NCBI GenBank assembly: GCA_016932835.1 | Contig: JAFGCD010000017.1 | Coordinates: forward strand, 1 to 64,000 | Reading direction: 5' to 3' | DNA length: 64,000 nt | From: Sedimentisphaerales bacterium | GTDB taxonomy: Bacteria; Planctomycetota; Phycisphaerae; Sedimentisphaerales; Anaerobacaceae | Shown: in pieces, positions 32,951 to 37,626 of the stretch | How the letters are laid out: each line of letters starts with the position of its first letter | How positions within the stretch are numbered: position 1 is the stretch's first letter | The notes under the pieces: generated by a model | What the model was told of the DNA's origin: nothing | Seen by the model: the letters and a program-made list of their open reading frames with translations, nothing else | The model's database searches: none | Program-made: the position numbers and the translations under genes

Positions 32951-33170
32951 TTTTCCGCTCCTTCTGCGAAAGACAATACGGGCACGGGCTCGAATGAAGG
33001 CCCATGCGGGGGAGTCTATATGGATGGTGCGGCTGTGTCAAGACGGCGGGAAGATTGGGGTGCTCATTGTGTTGCAAATCGGCGGAGGTCTGTTAGAATG
33101 GGGGCCGGTCGCAGGCTGCGGGCAGTCGGGGCGTTTTTCGCCGCCGGGCCTGCGGGCTTTTTTGAAATCC

Positions 33171-33255
33171 GGAGCAGTGGCAGAGTGGTTGATCGCGACG
33201 GTCTTGAAAACCGTTGTGCCGAAAGGCACCGGGGGTTCGAATCCCTCCTGCTCCG
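33171..33255 (+). tRNA. tRNA-Ser(TGA)
   Basis: Acceptor GGAGCAG/CTGCTCC, anticodon loop CTTGAAA, long variable arm, T-arm GGGGGTTCGAATCCCTCC; CCA not encoded. Confidence 0.95.
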
Positions 33256-33260
33256 TTGGG
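33238..33260 (+). repeat. att-like direct repeat copy A (tRNA-Ser 3' end)
   Basis: CGAATCCCTCCTGCTCCGTTGGG, repeated exactly at 34316..34338 and over 18 bp at 35507..35524. Confidence 0.85.
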
Positions 33261-33471
33261 AGGGATTCGAATCCGAGGAGGTCTGCGGGAGAAGCTCCGT
33301 GGGGAGGTAAAATCTGCCAAAGAATATGAAGAAAACTGTCTTCTATGCGTATATTGAACAGAGCAGTATAACGCAGGCTATTGACAGTGCTGTGGGGGTT
33401 GCCGATACTGTTCTGAGGCCGGTTTAAGTCGGTCTATCGAGAGAACACGGACAATTTTACAAGAGAACAAA

Positions 33472-34179
33472 ATGGATTTTGAAGCGGTTGGCAATTCATG
33501 CCTGTTTTGGGGTGGAGTGTGGGTTGGAGTAGGAGCGATCTCCGTCTCTGGCGGTTGGTTTTTGCTTGGTATCTACCAGCAAGCAAATAACTGGTTGCGA
33601 AAACGGCGGCGCTTCAAAGTTGCTGTCTTACGTAGAGGCTCAATCTTGTTAGCTTGGGTAATTCTGGTCCTCGGAGGCTCATTTCTGATAGGCAAGGGTA
33701 GCACGCTCACGACAAAGGGATGGAACATTTTGGATAATCATAGCCAGAAGCAAGCGTTGATTGTGGCCGCTATACGCGAGTGGAAGCTCAACGATGACTT
33801 GTTGCCGTTGTGCCATTTTGAGGAGACAGATGAAAGCGTGCTTGCAGAACGATGGCAATATCCCCGCTTTGAATGGAACGCCTCAAGCACACTTTATTCC
33901 TCGCCCTTATTCAACGTGAATCATTCGGGGGATTCAGAACTCTTGAAATCGGCCAGGAATTACCTATTTGTCGTCCGTGTCGTTCAAGAGGAGCTGGATG
34001 TAGTTGATGGGAAGCTCCATGCAGCACTAACAGCAAGCAAGCCGTTGGAGTACCACCGAGTTACTAACACTTCCAAGGATATCAAGATTTTCCTGGCTGT
34101 GCACAGGGGCCTGGGCAAATTATTGGAAGAGAAATACCCTGAGAACTGGCGGAAGGCCTTGAGAACACCTGAAGAGTGA
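33472..34179 (+). CDS. Hypothetical membrane protein (2 TM segments) in tRNA-Ser island
   Basis: 235 aa, two N-terminal hydrophobic segments then a soluble domain; no known family recognised. Confidence 0.6.
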   Translation: MDFEAVGNSCLFWGGVWVGVGAISVSGGWFLLGIYQQANNWLRKRRRFKVAVLRRGSILLAWVILVLGGSFLIGKGSTLTTKGWNILDNHSQKQALIVAAIREWKLNDDLLPLCHFEETDESVLAERWQYPRFEWNASSTLYSSPLFNVNHSGDSELLKSARNYLFVVRVVQEELDVVDGKLHAALTASKPLEYHRVTNTSKDIKIFLAVHRGLGKLLEEKYPENWRKALRTPEE

Positions 34180-34315
34180 GGCAGTGGTCTGCTTTTCGAT
34201 TTTTTTTTGTAAGCTGGTTTGTAAGCAGTGGATTGAGCTTTTGGTAAATTACTGCTTCTGCTGGAGGTAGGATTTTCAAGCGATGTTTCGAGACGCCGAA
34301 GGCGAGCCGCGAAAG

Positions 34316-34338
34316 CGAATCCCTCCTGCTCCGTTGGG
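34316..34338 (+). repeat. att-like direct repeat copy B
   Basis: 23/23 identity to tRNA-Ser 3' end and flank (CGAATCCCTCCTGCTCCGTTGGG). Confidence 0.85.
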
Positions 34339-34564
34339 CGTTCTTTAGAAGGGATTGCAGTATCCTCCGATACGCGTGGTTGGAGAGGCCGAAGGCAAGC
34401 GGCTGTTTGTCACGCGGAGCAAAGGTGTACGGTGAGTGTAACTGGAGTGCCGGCGGCTCAGAGGAGCGGAAACGGCGAGAATGCCGTAACATCGCCCCTC
34501 CACAGCGGTATTACTTGAATTGAAGCGAAAAACTATACTTGAAAGAAAGCAGTGCAATACCACA

Positions 34565-34634
34565 ATAACAAACGGAGCTGAAATCGTCTCCTAATTCAGA
34601 GACCTTTTTGTCTCATTCTTGCTGACGACGTACA
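34565..34634. repeat. 70-bp dispersed repeat, copy 2
   Basis: 68/70 identical to window positions 1..70. Confidence 0.9.
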
Positions 34635-34916
34635 TACTGTAACCGACTCAAGTGCCGCATACTCCCACCCTTCAGCAGACGCGCTATTCAGATGATTCTC
34701 GATCTTTCTTGCCTTGCTCCCTGCACTAATGCAGAACCAATCGCTTATTACCTTGTATTCTGCTCTCATAAGAAGCTTCCTTTCCTGTGATACCGAAAAG
34801 CTATCATGGTCATGAACAGGATACCACGAAATCCCTACAGGAGCAAGGAGTCGATATGGCTCGACAGGAGAGTGGGCGGCTTACCCCCGAAATAAAGGGA
34901 AATAAGAAAAGACTGC

Positions 34917-34944
34917 TTGCACAATCACACGGATGTGGTATAAT
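34917..34944 (+). promoter_or_regulatory. Sigma70-type promoter with extended -10 upstream of mini zinc-finger ORF
   Basis: TTGCAC (34917-34922), 16-nt spacer, TGGTATAAT (TATAAT 34939-34944); followed by hairpin AAAGATT-AGA-AATCTTT at 34958..34974. Confidence 0.6.
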
Positions 34945-35041
34945 CAACAAAATACATAAAGATTAGAAATCTTTAGGCCCCAGACGAAGACAACTGATCT
35001 TTGCAACTTCTCTGTTGGTGATCTACCTGATAGGAGTGAAG

Positions 35042-35203
35042 ATGGCGAAGAAACTAAAAACTTCGGCTGAGGGCAGGAAATGCAAGTTTCCACACTGTGG
35101 ACATCCCTTGAGTATCTACAATCATGAGGATTACTGTCATATACATCGGAATCAGACGGCTCAGGAGAGAATGCCCAAGATTCCATATCACCATCCTATA
35201 TAA
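35042..35203 (+). CDS. Small putative zinc-binding protein
   Basis: 53 aa: MAKKLKTSAEGRKCKFPHCGHPLSIYNHEDYCHIHRNQTAQERMPKIPYHHPI; CxxxxC and CxxH pair suggest a zinc site. Confidence 0.6.
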   Translation: MAKKLKTSAEGRKCKFPHCGHPLSIYNHEDYCHIHRNQTAQERMPKIPYHHPI

Positions 35204-35291
35204 ATTGACGCTATGGAGCACCTTTTCACTGTCGGAGACGGTTCTTCCTTGATTAAGCAACTTTCTTTCTGCAAATTCCTTTTTGCTTTAA

Positions 35292-35489
35292 GGCGGGGGT
35301 GTCGTTTTCCACTGCCATATTCAGATACCTTTTGCCTGTCTGCCAATCCTCGTCAGTCTCCAACAAGAACGACCGTCGAAAAATCGCCGAATTCTGAGCA
35401 AAGACGGACAATTACTGCTACCGTTTCTGGAGCTGATCGGCAACATCGCTGGGTGGGATAACCCAAGCGACCTATTGACCAGAGCATGA
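35292..35489 (+). pseudogene. Start-less open frame, possible C-terminal gene remnant next to att copy C
   Basis: Hand translation between stops: GGGVVFHCHIQIPFACLPILVSLQQERPSKNRRILSKDGQLLLPFLELIGNIAGWDNPSDLLTRA*; protein-like, no ATG. Confidence 0.3.
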
Positions 35490-35506
35490 GAAACTCCTTG
35501 CGTAGC

Positions 35507-35524
35507 ATCCCTCCTGCTCCGTTG
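35507..35524 (+). repeat. att-like direct repeat copy C
   Basis: ATCCCTCCTGCTCCGTTG, 18/18 identity to tRNA-Ser 3' end. Confidence 0.8.
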
Positions 35525-35848
35525 TTGTCATAGGGGGACATTGTGTCTTTTCCATTACCTAACTGTCTTGGAGATAAGCGTTTGGGATTCTCGGCTGTTT
35601 TGGCTGTGTTCTCCGGTTGGCTGCTAAACGAGGCCAACCGGCAACAAATAGCTCCCAATTTTCCTTGCCCTGCTACGTATCTAAGGGATATTCTATTTGC
35701 ATAACTAAAGAAATGAATTCACTGGACTTTTGACGTCGCAACTGAGACCGGCAGATATCAAAGCAAGCAGACGTGGGAAGCTCAGTGCCCCGATACGAGG
35801 CGCTGCTCCCACGAAAAGGTGAGAATCCAGACAAATGGAGAGGCCAGA

Positions 35849-36799
35849 ATGGGAATCAGTGAGGAGACAATCGTCCGAGTTTTGAGCGTTTCCGCTCTGT
35901 CGATCTTAGCCCTGCTTATATGGCTTATAGAGGGGCCTCGCAAACTGAAGTCATTTGTCCATGGTTCCGTTTGTGTGGCCGCCTGCTTTGCCTTCCTATT
36001 CGCCCTTGAGTTTGTTGACCACCTTCATCCTCTTTGGCTCCAACTCGTCGTACTATTCCCCGTTCTTTTTCTCATACTCGTCCTATGTTTTGCTCTCTGG
36101 ACGTGGCTTGAGCGCAAAATCGACCCACTCAGACCTCAACGAGAAGCCACCGAAAAAGCAAGAATCCGTAGAAACTATATCGAGCACGAACGCCGCTCGA
36201 AAGAATTGGAGGCTGAAATTGCCGAACTCAACCGCGAGTTTGATGAAATAGACCCCTTTTTAGACCAAGCCACCACCGATGAGGAACTGGAGCGATTGAT
36301 TGACATCAATGCGGCTGATGAAAAAGAGCCAAGTGGAATAAGCCACCAGCGACGAGAGAAGCTAATCCGGGATACAGAGGAGCGAATCAGGATGTGGCCT
36401 CCCATCAAGTTTAAGCTTGCCAAGGCCCACCAGCAAGACGCCCGAGTAAGAATCGAAGACTCTCCACTCACGGACGATGAAATCAGCATAGCGGAAGCTT
36501 GCGCCTCCCAAGATTTTATCGTCGAGTACATGGTAAACCGGCGTGCAGCCCTGCTGCGTGGTGCTTCCGCAAAGGAAATTGACACCTTGACAGAGGAGTG
36601 GGCGGAATATCACGAGGTCGATGTGGATGCGCTGGATTACGATTGGGTCGGCGCACTGCCCTTGAAGCTAAAGAAGATAAGGCGTATGGATAATGAAGCT
36701 GAAAAAGAAGCTGCAATCGAGGCTTTAGCATTGGAAGAAGTTCTGAAAACAGAGAAAGATACCGGCTCCGGGAGAGAACGCCCAACGAGTCAACAATAA
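35849..36799 (+). CDS. Hypothetical membrane protein with cytoplasmic coiled-coil region
   Basis: TM segments at the N-terminus then charged helical region; start MGISEETIVRVLSVSALSILALLIWL. Confidence 0.6.
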   Translation: MGISEETIVRVLSVSALSILALLIWLIEGPRKLKSFVHGSVCVAACFAFLFALEFVDHLHPLWLQLVVLFPVLFLILVLCFALWTWLERKIDPLRPQREATEKARIRRNYIEHERRSKELEAEIAELNREFDEIDPFLDQATTDEELERLIDINAADEKEPSGISHQRREKLIRDTEERIRMWPPIKFKLAKAHQQDARVRIEDSPLTDDEISIAEACASQDFIVEYMVNRRAALLRGASAKEIDTLTEEWAEYHEVDVDALDYDWVGALPLKLKKIRRMDNEAEKEAAIEALALEEVLKTEKDTGSGRERPTSQQ

Positions 36800-37380: not shown

Positions 37381-37626
37381 ATGAAAACGATAGAACTCTC
37401 AGACGAGTTGTACGAGGAACTGAAGGGCTTCGTCGCGGACCCGTTCGACGATACCGCGGAGATCGTAATCGGCCGACTGATCACGATAGCGAACAAGGCC
37501 AAGGATCGGTGGTCTCCCCTTGACGACTGCCCGAGCAGCAGTGTCGAGGAAGTGACGATGGCTTCCCGCACGAGGATGTCATACGAGGAACCCGAAGGCA
37601 TCGACGATTCCCCCGTAGTGCTGTAA
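37381..37626 (+). CDS. Small protein with SeqA-N/ribbon-helix-helix-like N-terminus
   Basis: MKTIELSDELYEELKGFVADPFDDTAEIVIGRLI resembles the SeqA N-terminal / RHH pattern MKTIEVDdELYxyI. Confidence 0.5.
   Translation: MKTIELSDELYEELKGFVADPFDDTAEIVIGRLITIANKAKDRWSPLDDCPSSSVEEVTMASRTRMSYEEPEGIDDSPVVL

Follow-up and report, generated by a model that had tools for sequence, protein, structure and literature searches.

Background

Elements that have no integration genes of their own but keep attL and attR sites (CIMEs) can be stacked by tandem accretion at the 3' end of a tRNA gene (PMC5704250). Dehalococcoides genomes carry tandem islands at ssrA that are bounded by direct repeats of the ssrA 3' end, some of them without an integration module (PMC3146451). 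On a smaller scale, a short fixed palindromic motif is found a little behind many tRNA genes of Methanopyrus kandleri (PMC5217627).

Here we examine the window (the whole 64,000-nucleotide stretch of DNA that was analysed), in which an intact tRNA-Ser(UGA) gene is followed by two further copies of its own 3' end. We consider it likely, with a probability of roughly two in three, that this array arose by serial integration with decay at tRNA-Ser(UGA), leaving an accretion array without integrases. The locus shares with CIMEs and accretion arrays the bounding repeats, the unoccupied sites in relatives and the lack of an integrase. Copy 2 and, weakly, copy 3 also lie inside a structured element that accompanies tRNA genes in relatives, so that a copied tRNA 3' end is not necessarily a simple att site in this clade.

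Sequences and profiles

Profiles of right (attR) and left (attL) element ends were built with the window's own sequences excluded. All conclusions were drawn from draft and MAG sequence.

Results and discussion

The tRNA-Ser(UGA) gene and its repeated 3' end

33170-33256, plus strand: intact tRNA-Ser(UGA) gene (ARAGORN), whose 3' end is repeat copy 1 (33238-33260)
33259-33271, plus strand: GGAGGGATTCGAA, immediately behind the tRNA and exactly reverse-complementary to the 3' part of its T-arm (inverted repeat I1)

The first-pass annotation reported exact recurrences of the tRNA 3' end, and re-measurement returned the same values: copy 2 (34316-34338) matches the tRNA-Ser 3' end and flank (33238-33260) at 23/23 positions, and copy 3 (35507-35524) matches the core of that 3' end at 18/18. 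The 18-mer starts at 33241, 34319 and 35507 with no mismatch at any of the three, compared with a chance expectation of 0.10 matches in the window when up to 3 mismatches are allowed. Over the longer 23-mer, copy 3 agrees at 19/23 positions, and the full 23 bp are kept by copy 2 only. Frequent occurrence of the 18-mer elsewhere had been named as grounds for doubt; no further copy with up to 2 mismatches was found across the whole 4.16 Mb genome (157 contigs).

That the copies reflect an assembly artefact or chance is extremely improbable. While the genome is a draft, and relatives' contigs sometimes break at this tRNA, the array is internal to a 108-kb contig and its left flank is syntenic, the probability that an 18-mer occurs three times on one strand and in one region is negligible, and independent profiles match at two of the copies.

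Unoccupied sites in relatives

Synteny with two congeners, G001 and G002, extends through the left flank (23-33 kb of the window) as far as the tRNA. In G001 and in G015, which belongs to a different genus, the same lipoprotein and 308-aa genes come after this tRNA and it has no further copies of its 3' end, from which we infer that the island is an insertion. The G002 contig terminates exactly at the tRNA 3' end, as would be expected at a repeat. The search for empty sites that had been proposed thus yielded two unoccupied loci, and a conserved three-copy arrangement, which was to speak against integration, was not encountered in the relatives. The sole gene right of the island that is also present behind tRNA-Ser(UGA) in G015 encodes an 81-aa protein (60% amino acid and 73% DNA identity), and the right limit of the island is therefore placed near 37.3 kb. 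G015 also has another occupied tRNA-Ser site, on contig C331 (L229, L235), where a partial, 69-bp copy of tRNA-Ser(GCT) lies some 9.4 kb downstream of the gene.

Content of the island

33472-34179, plus strand: orphan 235-aa ORF, cargo of module 1, no family or relative found
34565-34634, minus strand: dispersed short repeat, always bounded by TGTACGTCGTC, cutting into the end of the DUF4177-like ORF
34596-34769, minus strand: DUF4177-like ORF, apparently truncated (DUF4177 match below cut-off)
35042-35203, plus strand: 53-aa Cys/His ORF of module 2, 78% DNA identity to a stretch of contig C157 of congener G002
35249-35365, minus strand: IS-like relic, a multi-copy repeat of which several copies sit at contig ends
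35849-36799, plus strand: 316-aa membrane/coiled-coil ORF in the third, presumably oldest, segment of the island
37381-37626, plus strand: 81-aa ORF marking the right limit of the island, with its counterpart behind the same tRNA in G015

The two modules of the first-pass annotation are borne out; they measure about 1.08 and 1.19 kb and hold the two ORFs, of 235 and 53 aa. Features that it did not list are the DUF4177-like ORF, the dispersed repeat, the IS-like relic, the arm-like sequence and structured element described below, and the continuation of the island past copy 3 to about 37.3 kb, with the ORF at 35849-36799. GC content is 0.44-0.52 over 33.3-37.2 kb, as against 0.55-0.62 in the left flank. 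A search of 84,980 genomes found no relative of the 235-aa ORF, no cargo protein scored above cut-off against Pfam, PADLOC or PHROGs, and an Rfam search of the island returned the tRNA and sub-threshold matches only. The modules had been described as lacking a recognisable integrase; none was detected anywhere on the 108-kb contig, nor any remnant peptide of one in the island.

Two repeats in module 2 recur elsewhere. The type represented at 34565-34634 (about 100 bp) has a sharp TGTACGTCGTC boundary and flanks that are unrelated from copy to copy; other copies lie on contigs of the same genome (G000: C78 start, C79 start, C129, C153, C109 and C135) and on C449 of G002, and it is probably a separate small mobile element. 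The repeat at 35249-35365 is also present on contigs C140, C50, C110 and C58 and at the end of C78, and its minus-strand peptide resembles a transposase C-terminus, so that it probably represents the terminal portion of an IS transposase gene.

A tyrosine-integrase family at tRNA genes

34207-34226, plus strand: TTGTAAGCTGGTTTGTAAGC, 20 bases, paired putative integrase arm-type sites, identical on contigs C9, C13 and C16 and in relatives

The genome search for a tyrosine recombinase that had been recommended found ten Phage_integrase matches, all on contigs other than that of the window. On contig C16, integrase L007 sits at tRNA-Arg(CCT), and its relatives at 42-54% identity adjoin tRNA-Ser in four genomes (G058, G045, G008 and G041). 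The sequence TTGTAAGCTGGTTTGTAAGC is found behind tRNA-Arg(CCT) and within the integrase 3' end on C16, before a partial tRNA-Arg(CCT) on C9, and before a partial tRNA-Lys(CTT) on C13. Allowing up to 2 mismatches, it occurs in 12/41 genomes (0 for the reversed control), mostly beside tRNAs or tRNA fragments; this position and conservation suggest that the repeats are putative integrase arm sites.

Complete elements carry TTGTAAGCTGGTTTGTAAGC twice: at one end it follows the intact tRNA at about 175 bp, and at the other it precedes the end of the tRNA copy by 122 bp. The arm-to-tRNA-end spacing is exactly 122 in 5/5 canonical attR sites and 134 in G058, with its longer Ser variable arm. A whole element of about 6 kb in G037 comprises tRNA-Arg, integrase, arm sites at both ends and a second tRNA copy; in complete members such as this one the integrase is antisense and adjoins the tRNA. 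Canonical tRNA copies of this TTGTAAGC-arm family begin at the anticodon loop. Tandem stacking at the same tRNA-Ser is seen in G058, a single-contig genome.

Several further observations were made on this family. In G058 (L062, L063, L066), tRNA-Ser(TGA) is partially repeated at 25 and again at 66 kb downstream, and the sequence right of the last copy repeats that right of the tRNA, making this a tandem array of large integrative elements. In the genome of the window (G000), the integrase element at tRNA-Arg(CCT) is divided between C16 and C9 (L102, L105), and another element end lies at tRNA-Lys(CTT) on C13 (L104); C9 and C13 share their terminal 85 or so bases, which indicates that the assembly broke at a repeated element end. 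Translation of the arm sequence gives AYKPAYKK both in the C-terminus of the left-end integrase and in a small right-end ORF (L102, L104, L105, L151), and coding sequence and putative binding site therefore overlap.

att-type ends at copies 2 and 3

34200-34281, plus strand: attR-type element end before copy 2 (profile without the window, E=1.2e-9; next best 0.86)
35525-35595, plus strand: attL-like element end immediately right of copy 3 (window-free profile, E=0.0027, best match over the window)

Before copy 2 the arm-to-tRNA-end distance is 126 bp, compared with 122 in the five canonical attR sites. The attL-like match at copy 3 is weak (12.5 bits), offset by about 12 bases and without arms. 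No left arm sites of the TTGTAAGC family were found right of copy 1, so that they are missing from the left end of module 1, and none of its arm sites were found in module 2; nor was a fourth att copy found at the right end of the island. Unlike the canonical copies with their anticodon-loop start, copy 2 is identical to the tRNA from the T-loop onward only, because the tail element described below occupies that place. The window thus has the attR end with arm spacing of a TTGTAAGC-arm element at copy 2, and has no attL with arms, no integrase gene and no anticodon-loop start.

These ends bear on both origins put forward in the first-pass annotation. Serial integration with decay is strengthened by the repeat-free relatives, the attR-type end (E=1.2e-9), the attL-like end (E=0.0027) and the lack of an integrase. 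The other proposal, that the modules are functional non-autonomous miniatures excised and inserted in trans, for example by the L007 integrase on C16, is quite unlikely. It can draw on an integrase of the right family encoded in the same genome, with relatives adjoining tRNA-Ser, on the identical arm-like sequence common to C16, C9, C13 and the window, and on the 23-bp identity of copies 1 and 2; however, module 1 has arm-like sites at its right end only and none were found in module 2, which holds an interrupted ORF and the IS-like relic, the flanks of copy 3 are degenerate, and the same module is present in no second genome.

The tRNA-tail element

34263-34334, plus strand: tRNA-tail element with hairpin 1 shortened, whose 3' end is copy 2 (covariance model R1, 36.4 bits)
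35452-35522, plus strand: possible degenerate tail element ending in copy 3 (covariance model, 15.6 bits, E=0.016 in 6 kb; weak)

The tRNA-tail element is a structured element of about 90 nt that is apparently undescribed. The R1 match at copy 2 has E=2.1e-4 genome-wide, second after that on contig C156, and E=3e-7 in 6 kb. When the genome was searched with the island, 34288-34335 proved similar to a site on C156 behind tRNA-Ser(GCT), whose own 3' end is duplicated there about 130-150 bp downstream. The layout, namely GGGATGAGAACACGC, a variable, covarying hairpin, ACGCGGGTTTGACACGCCGAAGGCGAGCCGCGAAGC and then GAATCCCGCCCTCTCCG (equal to the tRNA end), is seen behind all tRNA-Ser isoacceptors in many relatives. 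On its left side the host T-arm is repeated in reverse complement, except that the loop reads GAG instead of TTC, and GGAGGGATTCGAA behind the tRNA of the window looks like such a left arm. The elements span about 90-190 bp and end in a copy of the host tRNA 3' end. Their conserved core, GATGAGAAC ... GGTTYGAC, might fold into a kink-turn-like junction of the tandem G-A type.

Nineteen tail loci were detected among 84,980 species, 18 of them 5-91 bp behind a same-strand tRNA (16 Ser, 2 His) and the last starting at a contig edge; the element in the window is exceptional in lying about 1 kb behind its tRNA, with module 1 between. All but one of the 19 are in records titled as Planctomycetota/Phycisphaerae groups, the other being 'Proteobacteria UBA2136'. 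A looser search added tRNA-Met and tRNA-Cys hosts. The elements behind tRNA-His, -Met and -Cys and in the UBA2136 record are loci L241, L255, L266, L284 and L247, and that in the UBA2136 record ends in the encoded CCA of its tRNA-Ser. A phylum-wide scan with strict filters found the element in 6/392 genomes, which suggests that it is confined to part of the phylum.

The element follows the sequence of its host tRNA. Matches to the own host scored 112 for the left arm, 111 for the inner arm and 342 for the end, compared with 100.4 ± 2.4, 95.9 ± 2.0 and 300.9 ± 5.2 for permuted hosts. Across 37 copies, in an alignment fitted to the covariance model, 91.8% of pair cells are standard and 112 are double-changed, as against 29.9 after shuffling and at most 21 in slid controls; a first alignment, made without the model, gave 22 double-changed cells against 6.9. 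Single-sequence folding of the window's copies was no better than that of shuffles, and the claim of structure therefore rests on covariation across relatives. Rfam returned only tRNA and sub-threshold matches, none at gathering score, and no description was found in the open-access literature. Taken as a real, structured, tRNA-bound family, the tail element is well supported.

Three other possibilities were set aside. The core sequences do not fit the boxes of an integron attC, as judged by eye; a small coding gene is at odds with reading frames that vary among copies while the hairpin covaries; and a second tail element at about 34352-34403, hinted at by repeat D5, gave no match to the covariance model.

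Presence, absence and possible mobility of the tail element

Close relatives differ in whether they carry the element. A 125-bp unit is present about 1.8 times behind tRNA-Ser(CGA) in G046, whereas its congeners G050 and G054 lack the tail and have only 76-77 bp before the same gene; the tail at tRNA-Ser(GCT) of C156 is likewise missing in congener G001. Two tRNAs of G136 are followed by tandem partial tail copies, and the terminator-like hairpin that separates tRNA from tail element disfavours a simple tRNA trailer there. In G016 the order is tRNA-Ser(TGA), tail element and then the left end of an integrase element, which suggests that tail ends may serve as landing sites for integrase elements. 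The tail is most likely a non-coding mini-element for which tRNA 3' ends are the place of insertion or exchange. We put forward tentatively, at somewhat less than even odds, that it represents a novel class of mobile non-coding mini-element and that the repeated tRNA ends in the window are partly its product.

On another reading, tail elements multiplied in tandem by slippage or unequal recombination would account for the extra 3'-end copies, with no role for an integrase and with the intervening DNA an unrelated insertion. Tandem tail elements do occur in G046 and G136, and tail elements stand beside many tRNAs with no integrase nearby. This origin is nonetheless unlikely: an attR-type arm region with conserved spacing immediately precedes copy 2 (E=1.2e-9), the cargo is low in GC and has orphan ORFs, and an attL-like end lies right of copy 3.

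Proposed origin of the array

Under serial integration with decay, tRNA-Ser(UGA) would be an integration hotspot at which tyrosine-integrase elements recombine with the tRNA gene in its 3' part; each insertion would restore the tRNA and leave a 3'-end copy on its far side. Repeated insertion would stack the elements, the newest adjoining the tRNA and the oldest outermost, and subsequent loss of their integrases would leave an accretion array of cis-mobilisable-type remnants, here the segments 33257-34338, 34339-35524 and 35525 to about 37.3 kb. At the same time copy 2 would be the 3' end of a tail element, as copy 3 may also be. An order with the youngest element next to the tRNA fits the interruptions of module 2 (dispersed repeat, IS-like relic) and the retention of the full 23 bp at copy 2 only. 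The order of events, catalysis by the TTGTAAGC-arm integrase family and the present immobility of the array are what we infer from these features.

Significance and comparison with known systems

The array of decayed elements varies a known theme only slightly; the structured tail element is of greater importance. It is shorter than 200 bases and geneless, tracks the sequence of its host tRNA and occurs in many genera, yet close relatives differ in whether they have it. Mobility, if confirmed, would place it among the smallest known integrating elements; were it an RNA, it could represent a novel type of tRNA 3' flank, competing with or complementary to the T-arm of the tRNA. Duplicated tRNA 3' ends, the usual sign of a genomic island, can thus have another origin in this clade.

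Among described RNAs, the model of the sX4 sRNA (RF02223) overlaps tRNA-Ser and downstream sequence, but all matches are far below gathering score and driven by the tRNA. With tRNA-targeting tyrosine-integrase elements (IME/satellite type) of the TTGTAAGC-arm family, the window shares the attR end and arm spacing at copy 2, and it differs from them in having neither integrase nor left arms. The Dehalococcoides ssrA islands (PMC3146451) involve serine recombinases and kilobases of cargo, as opposed to a tyrosine-integrase family and tRNA genes here. As in CIMEs (PMC5704250), integrase-less segments stand in tandem at a tRNA 3' end; in the window, however, the segments are far shorter (1.1-1.2 kb) and the putative att copies overlap a structured tail element. 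That element resembles the Methanopyrus kandleri motif (PMC5217627) in being conserved and close behind many tRNA genes, and differs from it in having several hairpins, an inverted copy of the host T-arm and a copy of the tRNA 3' end.
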